Assembly: GCA_016219765.1 (NCBI GenBank)
Contig: JACRKM010000042.1
Span: forward strand, 1-9,305
Length of the DNA: 9,305 nt
From: Candidatus Woesearchaeota archaeon
GTDB taxonomy: Archaea; Nanobdellota; Nanobdellia; Woesearchaeales; UBA11576
Direction: 5' to 3'
A model generated the notes under the pieces. The model saw nothing but the letters and a program-made list of their open reading frames with translations, was not told the origin of the DNA and did not search any database. The position numbers were made by a program, and so were the translations under genes. This document shows, piece by piece, positions 1 through 5,293 of this stretch; the stretch's first letter is position 1; every line of letters starts with the position of its first letter.

Positions 1-417
1 TCTCAAGAGCGGGCACGCCTGCGGCGCGCCCACTGAGAGTTGTGACGACAGCAGGAGGCCTGCACCACCACGCCAAGCTCGTGATAGTGAATGCGCCTCT
101 CGCTAGCCGACATCCCCCGATGTGCCTTCCCCATAAGGGAGTGCCTCCCTTATTATCGAAAATCAAAGATTTTCGGAACATCCAGACTATCTGGATGCAA
201 CCCACCCCAAGACGGGCATGAAGCCCGTCGAATCATAACAAGTCTCATCACTTTCGTCGTCCGATTGGAGCGCAGCGGAAATCGGACTGGAGTTCGAGTG
301 CCAGCGGATCGATGGCCGCTGGGGGCGTTCAACTTGTCGGAGTGTTTGTGTATCTTTCTATCTCTCGCAAAAGGGCCGTGGTGGTGAGTGTGCCGGCGCT
401 ATTTTCTACAGAGCCGG
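1..417. repeat. Element A: hairpin-rich modular repeat (left end may lie outside the window)
   Basis: No gene is supported here. The stretch is a chain of hairpins: 11-31 (9-bp stem, one mismatch, loop TGC), 51-63 (5 bp, loop AGG), 110-123 (5 bp, loop CCCC), 133-153 (9 bp, TGC), 157-175 (8 bp, AAA), 179-197 (8 bp, CTA), 211-229 (7 bp, ATGAA), 259-287 (8 bp, 13-nt loop) and 301-322 (7 bp, 8-nt loop). A perfect 10-bp inverted repeat, CACCACCACG at 63-72 and CGTGGTGGTG at 377-386, encloses most of them. The block GCTCGTGAT (77-85), the block starting CGACATC (108-122), CTTGTCG (333-339), CTATCTCTCGC (358-368) and GTGCCGGC (390-397) recur in the same order in element B. The part 133-241 recurs inverted in element C. 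No target duplication is visible, and the left boundary is uncertain because the window begins here. Confidence 0.7.
133..241 (+). repeat. Hairpin block of element A shared with element C
   Basis: The 21-nt palindrome at 133-153 (stem ATAAGGGAG, loop TGC) is found exactly, reverse-complemented, at 5220-5240. The part 198-241 (CAACCCAC, then a 7-bp stem with loop ATGAA, then GAAT and AACAA) matches the reverse complement of 5179-5219. The stem is GACGGGC/GCCCGTC here and GGCAGGC/GCCTGCC in C. The two base-pair differences are fully compensated and the loop is unchanged. Copy A carries 44 extra nt (154-197) holding two more perfect 8-bp hairpins with 3-nt loops. Confidence 0.8.
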
Positions 418-830: not shown

Positions 831-835
831 CTTCC

Positions 836-1083
836 ATTGCCGGGCGCCATTGAAAAGTTGTGCATACTGCGTGCCGGCACCATTGCGGCGTGCTGCGCAC
901 ACCTTCATTCGTTCAACACCGCTGCCGGCTCGTGATGCGGGATTCTGTTCTGTCGGGTCGACATTCCCCGATGGGGCGTCCCCCTTGTCGACATGAAAGC
1001 AAGATTCGCTATCTCTCGCGTCAGGGCAGCGGTGTTGAACGTGCCGGCACTCTTGGATTTTTCAATGACGCCTATTGCCGGGC
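836..1083. repeat. Element B: inverted-repeat element flanked by direct repeats
   Basis: The sequence ATTGCCGGGC occurs at 836-845 and again at 1074-1083, bracketing an inverted pair GGCGCCATTGAAAA (843-856) / TTTTCAATGACGCC (1059-1072) with one mismatch. Further in lie two copies of the self-complementary GTGCCGGCAC (871-880, 1041-1050) and a perfect 16-bp inverted repeat, GTTCAACACCGCTGCC (911-926) with its complement at 1025-1040. The centre folds into nested stems: GTCGACA/TGTCGAC (957-963, 986-992) around CCCC-GAT-GGGG (966-976). The blocks at 928-936, 959-973, 984-990 and 1009-1019 match element A in order. The direct repeats could be a 6-7 bp target duplication, but the edges overlap the inverted repeat, so the exact ends are uncertain. 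No coding sequence is supported. Confidence 0.7.
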
Positions 1084-1117
1084 ATGATGCCCATTACTTT
1101 CTCTTCTTTTCTCTTCT
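1080..1117 (+). terminator. Possible plus-strand terminator after element B
   Basis: A small hairpin with the core GGGCATGATGCCC (1080-1092) is followed by a pyrimidine tract made of a perfect 10-bp tandem repeat, TTTCTCTTCT (1098-1107, 1108-1117). Hairpin plus U-rich tract is the form expected for stopping a transcript that crosses B rightwards. It overlaps the stop codon of the minus-strand peptidase gene and would shield that gene from antisense transcription. The hairpin core differs by one base from the one at 214-226 in element A. Confidence 0.35.
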
Positions 1118-2199
1118 TAGAAATGCGTAAGATCTACAAAACCCTGATTCTTCGGAAGAAACCGCGGACGAGACAGTCCAGTTACTTCTGTAAGTAATGG
1201 CGCGTGTTCAACGCCTATCTTACCCCAGTAGAGATCTTGCAATTCACCCTTGTCTTCCAGAAATTTCTTAACGGTAAAGTACCCTTCGAGGTACACAAAG
1301 TCTTTTGGGAAACCACCGCGCTTGGAAGTATCAGCAAGGCCTCGTTTCACCCTGAGTGCGAGTTTGAATGCCGCATCATCACCAAGCCGCTCCAGAAAAT
1401 ATTTGTAGATCTTCGAGAAAGAACGGTCTTGGCTCATTTTGACCGCAATCGCGCGCGCAGCGTACAAGCGCATCGTCTCTGCAGAGAGCAGGCCAAACCG
1501 TTCTTCATTAAATACTGCAAGACCCTCTTCGGTGGCTAAGTACTGGGGAAAACCTGACAAGAATATCCTAAATGGCTGCGCTCGGCCATTTTCCGCGCGA
1601 AGCACGTGTGTACCGATCTCGTGCACGATTAGCCTCTGAATGTATTGATGGGAGAAGCAGGCATCTTTGCGGATAAAAACACACTTATCTGCAACAGATA
1701 CCGCAGCAAGAGAACTCATCTCCTTTTGTTTTACTATGTAGGGAAAACCGTAATGGATCAGCTCCGCCCGAAGAATGTGCGCCGCCTGAGCCGCGCTTAC
1801 TACGCTTTTTTCATTTTGCGATTCTAATGACATTAGCTCCGCAGCGCGTGCAAGCGTAGACTCTTTTGGAAACCCGCACACCTTCTTTGCAAATATGCTG
1901 AACTTCGGCGTGCCGATGCAACGCATCATCTCGCACTTGTCTATGAAAATATCCCGCTTTTGCGTAAGCAATGAGCCTAACACCGAATCATGATCGTCAA
2001 CCGCGTCGAGCTCCTCTTCCACATTGTCTGGATTGTGCGGGAGATTCGAATATCGGAACTGAGGCTCGTAGTTCTCGTCAACTAACACTTTCTGTTTTTC
2101 TTCATCAATGTTGGCCGGGTTAATCGCGAGAAACGAAATCTTGCTTGTCGCCTCGTGCAATGCCGCATCAATGCTTTTCAGTAAGAAGAACTCACTCAC
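1117..2199 (-). CDS. DUF1704/MATCAP-like zinc metallopeptidase
   Basis: This 360-residue protein belongs to the DUF1704 family, whose eukaryotic members (MATCAP) are zinc carboxypeptidases acting on tubulin C-termini. The bacterial and archaeal members have no settled substrate. The zinc motif HEIGTH is at residues 193-198, and a downstream TEEGLAVFNE (223-232) carries the probable third ligand, Glu225. The latter corresponds to the QEGLA motif from which some annotations take their name. No signal peptide or membrane segment is seen, so it is probably cytosolic. The start is GTG: GAGGTG at 2206-2211 (complement strand) lies 6 nt upstream, and a TATA-like stretch lies about 45 bp upstream. 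Length and motifs look intact. The archaeal substrate is unknown. Confidence 0.88.
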   Translation of the reverse strand: MSEFFLLKSIDAALHEATSKISFLAINPANIDEEKQKVLVDENYEPQFRYSNLPHNPDNVEEELDAVDDHDSVLGSLLTQKRDIFIDKCEMMRCIGTPKFSIFAKKVCGFPKESTLARAAELMSLESQNEKSVVSAAQAAHILRAELIHYGFPYIVKQKEMSSLAAVSVADKCVFIRKDACFSHQYIQRLIVHEIGTHVLRAENGRAQPFRIFLSGFPQYLATEEGLAVFNEERFGLLSAETMRLYAARAIAVKMSQDRSFSKIYKYFLERLGDDAAFKLALRVKRGLADTSKRGGFPKDFVYLEGYFTVKKFLEDKGELQDLYWGKIGVEHAPLLTEVTGLSRPRFLPKNQGFVDLTHF

Positions 2200-5039: not shown

Positions 5040-5293
5040 GTTTAATGGTATTTGTTTAGCTAATCACTCTCACAGCGCCGCCACCGACCTGCGAGCTGGC
5101 GGAAAACGGATACGATGCCACAGCTCTTGGAAAACATAGTCCGCTTTCACATACATACGAGTTGTGAATGATTGCGTATTGTTATTCGGCAGGCTTCATG
5201 CCTGCCTTGATGTGGGTTGATAAGGGAGGCACTCCCTTATCGAGCGTCAGTGGCGGCGCTGTGAGCATAAGAGCTAAACAAATACGTTTAATG
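5040..5293. mobile_element. Element C: MITE-like non-autonomous transposon with 8-bp target duplication
   Basis: The element body is 5048-5285 (238 bp). A perfect 14-bp terminal inverted repeat starts GTATTTGTTTAGCT (5048-5061), with its complement at 5272-5285. A second inverted pair of 16 bp, CTCACAGCGCCGCCAC (5069-5084), has its complement at 5250-5265. The body is flanked by GTTTAATG at 5040-5047 and 5286-5293, an 8-bp direct repeat expected from staggered target cutting. The interior holds hairpins at 5078-5102 (CCGCCA/TGGCGG), 5146-5168 (TTCACA/TGTGAA), 5188-5206 and 5220-5240. The last two match element A in reverse orientation. No transposase is encoded, so it would have to be moved in trans. 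The transposase family cannot be named from these ends. Confidence 0.82.
5179..5240 (-). repeat. Hairpin block of element C matching element A
   Basis: Read on the minus strand, the palindrome at 5220-5240 (loop TGC) is followed directly by CAACCCACATCAA, then a 7-bp hairpin with loop ATGAA (5188-5206), then GAATAACAA. This is the element A block without its two extra hairpins. The hairpin stem differs from A by two compensated base pairs. Confidence 0.8.

Follow-up and report, generated by a model that had tools for sequence, protein, structure and literature searches.

Hairpin modules within MITE-like elements of a Woesearchaeota archaeon and the compensated changes in their stems

Here we report that a hairpin block at positions 133-241 of a contig of a Candidatus Woesearchaeota archaeon is no lone structured RNA. 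It forms the hairpin-rich interior of an element that is MITE-like, present in many copies and bounded by terminal inverted repeats. The window, i.e. the whole stretch of DNA that was analysed (9,305 bp; contig C170), belongs to an incomplete genome of 1.09 Mb in 178 contigs that is 81% complete (G000, the own genome below), and was compared with a second genome of the same genus (G001) and with further genomes. Covariation is the usual proof of a functional RNA, and the block carries paired-base changes relative to an inverted copy of its hairpin module at 5184-5240, which lies within different ends. In the reading that we consider the most probable, the elements are non-autonomous transposons and the module went from one element family to another through template switching or recombination at its hairpins. 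The copying of arms or hairpins in DNA, more than selection for a working RNA, is likely to lie behind the paired-base changes.

Results

Three elements lie in the window: a B-family end (1-415), a D-family element (843-1072) and an A-family element (5048-5285). Their parts, with the evidence in brackets, are as follows.

1..415, + strand: B-family element, right part, its left end lying beyond the contig start (end pattern; complete copies)
63..74, + strand: left arm of the core stem, CACCACCACGCC (core-stem collection; permutation test)
259..287, + strand: hairpin GTCCGATT...AATCGGAC, common to other long elements (element comparison)
301..322, + strand: hairpin CCAGCGG...CCGCTGG, common to other long elements (element comparison)
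374..386, + strand: right arm of the core stem (core-stem collection; permutation test)
402..415, + strand: right terminal repeat of the B element, TTTTCTACAGAGCC (terminal-repeat pattern)
835..842, no strand: near-duplicate left flank of the D element, CATTGCCG (agrees with the right flank in 7 of 8 bases)
843..1072, + strand: D-family element, short form, with the common core and without the module; ends GGCGCCATTGAAAA and TTTTCAATGACGCC
1073..1080, no strand: near-duplicate right flank of the D element, TATTGCCG
5040..5047, no strand: left target duplication of the A element, GTTTAATG (row L031)
5048..5285, - strand: A-family element with terminal repeats GTATTTGTTTAGCT / AGCTAAACAAATAC (end pattern; end pairing)
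5286..5293, no strand: right target duplication of the A element, GTTTAATG (row L031)

With up to one mismatch allowed, terminal repeat A (GTATTTGTTTAGCT) was matched 106 times in the own genome, terminal repeat B (GGCTCTGTAGAAAR) 57 times and terminal repeat C (GGTTGGTGCGAAAW) 42 times, and the reversed-pattern controls gave 2, 1 and 0 matches, respectively. The ends in the loci examined were paired by a script into 33 A-A rows, 15 B-B rows (two of which are one element), 16 C-C rows and 7 rows with unlike ends. An exact 8-bp target duplication flanks 25 of the 33 A-A rows and an exact 9-bp duplication 8 of the 15 B-B rows; for the 16 C-C rows the script detected no exact long duplication, and imperfect duplications next to CC/GG extensions were seen there by eye. 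The D family comprises four copies (the window element and three more), three of which have exact 8- or 9-bp duplications, the window copy having the near-duplicate flanks listed above. Like-ended elements are 146-509 bp long and too short for a transposase gene. The MITE-like character of these sequences is given by their paired terminal inverted repeats (A, B, C and D), their target duplications and their many dispersed short copies.

Among the seven rows with unlike ends, the three B-A rows are nesting artefacts and an 859-bp A-B row probably consists of two unrelated ends; the three credible elements (one A-C, two B-C) all lack a target duplication, which fits recombination between elements. 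These three, each of which combines a C end with an A or B end, are found on contigs C175 (L059), C162 (L011) and C30 (L124) of the own genome. On contigs C133 (L040) and C113 (L109), a B left end is interrupted at the same place by an A element (238 and 155 bp, respectively), with the duplication GAAAATCT in both cases. Several contigs start or stop within element copies (the window at position 1; C88, C118, C67, C101 and C173 of the own genome), so that the assembly breaks there and copies are undercounted.

Within the taxonomic order, the A element was matched in 5 of 59 genomes, the own genome included. A-like ends around different interiors occur in another genus of the family (G006, L033, L039, L043 and L046; G009, L035), and no A end was seen at the three loci of G002 that match the A element. 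No match was found to the A element among plasmid records or to window positions 1-417 among phage records.

Repeat search and covariance model R1 identified positions 133-233 (+ strand) and 5184-5240 (- strand) as copies of one module, in which hairpin 1 (ATAAGGGAGTGCCTCCCTTAT) is followed by the linker CAACCCAC and by hairpin 2 (seven-pair stem, ATGAA loop). The model, which was built from module copies of the same kind as the two that it scored, gave 76 bits for the copy at 133 and 91 bits for the copy at 5184. The parts of the module in the window are as follows.

133..153, + strand: hairpin 1, ATAAGGGAGTGCCTCCCTTAT (pattern search; module alignment)
157..175, + strand: extra hairpin CGAAAATC-AAA-GATTTTCG, long module form only (alignment A1)
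179..197, + strand: extra hairpin CATCCAGA-CTA-TCTGGATG (alignment A1)
198..205, + strand: linker CAACCCAC (comparison of module copies)
211..229, + strand: hairpin 2, GACGGGC-ATGAA-GCCCGTC (alignment; hairpin-2 listing)
5184..5240, - strand: inverted module copy, short form, with hairpin 2 GGCAGGC-ATGAA-GCCTGCC (repeat search; model R1)

A preliminary description of this DNA had claimed that palindrome, linker and ATGAA loop are kept in both window copies and that the stem of one hairpin differs at two base pairs with pairing retained; both statements are borne out, the two differences between the hairpin-2 stems GACGGGC/GCCCGTC and GGCAGGC/GCCTGCC being compensated. The copy at 133 has two additional hairpins (157-175 and 179-197) between palindrome and linker, which the copy at 5184-5240 lacks; the hairpin of 179-197 has two more compensated forms, in L008 and L009 (alignment A1).

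The supposed two copies are members of a large family, far beyond chance. A BLAST search with positions 121-245 gave 48 matches in the own genome, and a degenerate pattern for hairpin 1 that tolerated up to one mismatch was found 38 times in the own genome and 21 times in G001, with no match for the reversed-pattern control in either genome; with the same pattern, hairpin 1 was not found in G002 or G006, and viral contigs held no exact match. As many as 55 of the 59 hairpin-1 matches in the two genomes were free of mismatches. The ninth pair of hairpin 1 was G-C 28 times and A-T 27 times and never mixed, though the pattern left each side free. Three alleles of hairpin 1 (GTGCC, ATGCT and ATACT around the loop) were found in both species, which argues for old alleles that were copied often and not for 55 independent changes.

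The four terminal-repeat families share hairpin interiors. The interiors of L012 (a B element) and L135 (a C element) are identical in 352 of 398 columns. Their ends differ, with 22 gaps among the first 30 columns of the alignment and, among the last 30, 12 identities and 10 gaps. Hairpin 1 is present in 10 of 33 A, 5 of 14 B and 4 of 16 C elements, in the single A-C element, in one of two B-C elements and in D element L207. At the place where longer elements carry the module together with further hairpins, a simple inner hairpin is found in short B, C and D elements (207-234 bp). Copies of the module lie in either orientation and within several types of element, and in some of them hairpin 2 is substituted by unrelated hairpins; the copies are dispersed palindromic modules that merge and shuffle.

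Hairpin 2 is fully paired in 23 of 27 copies, as GGCAGGC/GCCTGCC (15), GACGGGC/GCCCGTC (6) or GATGGGC/GCCCATC (2). Uncompensated stem changes, which at the rate of loop changes would according to the preliminary description refute a maintained fold, give a mixed picture: four of the 27 copies are broken, two of them recombinant-like and two possibly by one-sided mutation. In L004 and L006, the left arm GACGGGC is combined with the right arm GCCTGCC and with the downstream sequence GAATACCGACGA, as in the GGCAGGC copies L008 and L011, and the simplest reading would be a crossover or template switch within the five-base loop. The left arm GACAGGC of L007 and L009 may be due to partial exchange or to one-sided mutation. 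L041 has a paired GGCAGGC hairpin ahead of GAATAACGACACGAC, which elsewhere follows GACGGGC (L014, L052), and either the whole hairpin would have been exchanged or the change compensated. Point mutation or compensation can also explain L007, L009 and L041.

The compensated differences hold in further copies from the own genome and G001. Alignment A1 contains 26 module copies of the two species in 20 distinct rows and takes in 26 of the 27 listed hairpin-2 copies, L028 being omitted, as is L005, which is cut by a contig end. In this alignment, 98.9% of the 448 stem cells are paired, two-sided changes occur at 7 of 32 pairs (29 cells), and the covariation score is 0.105; none of 500 shuffles reached the observed value of any of these four measures. 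Pairing falls to 35-48% when the partner is shifted by one to three columns. The hairpin-2 pair 80/96 is broken in 4 of 20 rows, and the eight pairs of the second hairpin of the alignment are invariant. Further pair types number 8, a value equalled or exceeded by all 500 shuffles (mean 9.7). The compensated changes amount to a few old hairpin alleles copied many times, and independent compensations are far fewer than copies.

The core stem that encloses the interior is paired at 89.7% of the positions in its inner 13 columns, versus 80.6% after permutation (maximum 86.3%; reached in 0 of 3000), in 55 of 67 pattern matches with 27 distinct arm pairs and a register that allows for a bulge. Most of the 12 matches dropped are due to chance, but L222 and L224 have a right arm without a left one, and L206 repeats a retained row in another register. 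L210 and L218 stayed in the set in spite of their poor pairing.

At tRNA-Arg(CCT), both species have a tRNA 5' piece (27-29 identical bases), then the module and then the intact tRNA. The own genome has there a second such unit (12 identical bases) and a downstream 3' piece (13 identical bases) not found by search in G001. Comparable units lie ahead of tRNA-Ser genes in both genomes, with matches to model R1 in L251, L296, L345 and L368 (E values of 2e-7 to 1e-4). The model gave no match at E ≤1 in 31 loci from G002 and G006 (30) and G009 (1). At tRNA-Leu(CAG) of the own genome, the tRNA 3' end and its flank are repeated directly over 31 bases, with hairpins between the two copies; the G001 copy with the same tRNA-Leu(CAG) sequence has no such direct repeat. 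Most of the tRNA genes surveyed (23 tRNA matches in the own genome, 43 in G001) are without such pieces. Partial tRNA ends and modules beside intact tRNAs were seen on contigs C76, C165, C53, C132 and C46 of the own genome (L250, L307, L308, L162, L242) and on C27, C142, C94 and C234 of G001 (L344, L362, L345, L368). In three cases of the own genome (Arg, Ser, Leu), the 3' piece is absent from the corresponding G001 locus.

No autonomous element with A, B or C ends was found among the matches to PF01609 and PF12762. PF01609 had no match in the own genome and 8 in G001, none of these 8 loci having an A, B or C end (up to two mismatches) and the candidate ends of four of them differing from A, B and C; PF12762 had no match in either genome. 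A check of the unpaired A ends for distant partners and long ORFs, judged by ORF length and first residues only, recognised no transposase.

Discussion

From the compensated changes, the preliminary description had concluded that the fold is maintained, as in a structured RNA or a DNA hairpin recognised by a protein. Pairing is indeed kept under sequence change, and in more copies and stems than were compared there, but neither a structured RNA nor a protein-bound hairpin is implied, since G.T mismatches are not in excess and the blocks lie inside elements with terminal repeats and target duplications. If a working RNA were made from one strand, G.T would be expected to outnumber A.C among the one-sided stem changes of that strand. 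Among 67 folded elements, one of which is without known orientation and one of which was counted twice, single stem mismatches (no wobble pairs allowed, + strand letters) were 28 A.C and 23 G.T when the + strand was folded, and 25 A.C and 29 G.T when the - strand was folded; these counts are small, and the two foldings largely see the same mismatches. The lack of a G.T excess speaks against a single functional RNA strand that tolerates wobble. A structured RNA or RNA processing signal whose fold is under selection and which rides in mobile elements by chance would account for the strong covariation and for the position of the module between the tRNA 5' piece and the intact tRNA-Arg in both species, where it would be transcribed if a promoter lies upstream of the piece. 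We nevertheless hold this explanation to be quite unlikely: besides the equal, if small, numbers of G.T and A.C mismatches, the module occurs in both orientations and several element types, with hairpin 2 swapped for unrelated hairpins in some copies, and the Rfam scan of the window gave two weak matches, both below the family cut-off. Nothing of relevance came from a tRNA scan of the window.

Selection on a DNA hairpin would produce covariation just as well, which counts against our preferred reading. So do the result that no transposase with matching ends was found among the PF01609 and PF12762 matches and the restriction of exact long duplications to 8 of 15 B-B rows and none of 16 C-C rows. 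The hairpins might be kept as DNA cruciforms that are recognised by a protein (a transposase or a nucleoid protein) for movement or persistence; the stems remain paired, hairpins 1 and 2 have short loops with little variation, and the mismatch types are symmetric, as expected for DNA. The module is absent, however, from 23 of 33 A, 9 of 14 B and 12 of 16 C elements, and since many elements have intact ends and duplications without it, the module is not needed for movement, which leaves recognition of a cruciform an unlikely explanation. Mobilisation of the modules as REP-like palindromes by a RAYT (TnpA-REP) transposase is suggested by their shortness and by their many dispersed copies in both orientations, but appears very improbable. 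In a listing of 45 copies, in which those equal in the upstream 12 and the first 60 bases were merged, no conserved GTAG or CGTC tag was seen by eye at the hairpin-1 foot, and the elements around the modules have terminal repeats that are long and duplications of 8-9 bp. Near two tRNA-linked copies, letters of the GTAG/CGTC type lie within the tRNA piece. An integron attC-like nature of the tRNA-linked arrays was also considered but is not adopted here.

In the transfer of modules between non-autonomous elements that we favour, transposases acting in trans would move the elements, and hairpins would be exchanged and their arms homogenised during DNA replication or repair. Copying of one arm or of a whole hairpin would keep the stems paired without selection for an RNA. 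We infer this exchange, through template switching or recombination, from the mosaic elements, from the elements with unlike ends and from the copies L004 and L006. We put forward only tentatively, and consider somewhat unlikely, a wider picture in which small hairpin modules form a genome-wide pool in this archaeal genus and travel by DNA template switching from one structured site to another. Modules would then cross between unrelated transposon families, build up hairpins within hairpins and enter tRNA genes, where a duplicated tRNA end would be left behind and the tRNA itself kept intact.

The nearest analogues would be the GC clusters of yeast mitochondria and the BOX elements of pneumococci. 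Yeast mitochondrial GC clusters (GC42) are described as short dispersed palindromic modules that merge and shuffle (PMC4478555), and among mitochondrial double-hairpin elements, double hairpins and palindromes in both orientations are known (PMC4478555, PMC2670323, PMC2800124). As described in excerpts of these sources, they are organellar, and GC clusters have very short flanking repeats (AG or ACT), whereas the archaeal modules stand at tRNA genes as well as in elements whose terminal repeats are long and whose duplications measure 8-9 bp. BOX is described as a modular, folded, MITE-like repeat of variable length (PMC3049150), with one set of modules (A, B, C) in the excerpt used here, whereas in the archaeal system one hairpin pool is common to four terminal-repeat families. 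The excerpts of the accounts of GC clusters (PMC4478555) and BOX (PMC3049150) do not mention several terminal-repeat families sharing one hairpin pool. REP and REPIN sequences are likewise small dispersed palindromes (PMC3733652, PMC3116915), but the archaeal module lacks the foot tag and lies inside larger elements. Among the matches listed from the open-licence literature on archaeal and DPANN mobile repeats, no such system was apparent from title or start of abstract.

Template switching has been proposed to create perfect stems and compensatory changes in RNA genes (PMC8794818); in the excerpt of that work, the authors call their own evidence for the upkeep of short stems circumstantial. 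The proposal concerns RNA genes there, whereas in the archaeal elements template switching would act on mobile DNA, and the elements lend themselves to natural tests of the theory that template switching maintains hairpins. Strong covariation that goes together with marks of mobile DNA and, in two copies, of loop exchange is a warning for RNA discovery by covariance models. The elements also provide, from an archaeal lineage, a further example of hairpins shuffled between transposon families and of modules located at tRNA genes.

Some minor observations concern the same genomes. In G001, tRNA matches of more than 100 bases on contigs C304, C32, C142 and C234 (L357, L352, L369, L362, L368) apparently contain introns able to hold hairpins. 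A tight cluster of five tRNAs on contig C158 of G001 (L350) looks bacterial by eye and is possibly a contamination of the assembly. Window positions 1117-2199 (- strand) encode a protein that matches Pfam MATCAP (PF08014, tyrosine carboxypeptidase family) with an E value of 2.6e-56, in an archaeal genome.
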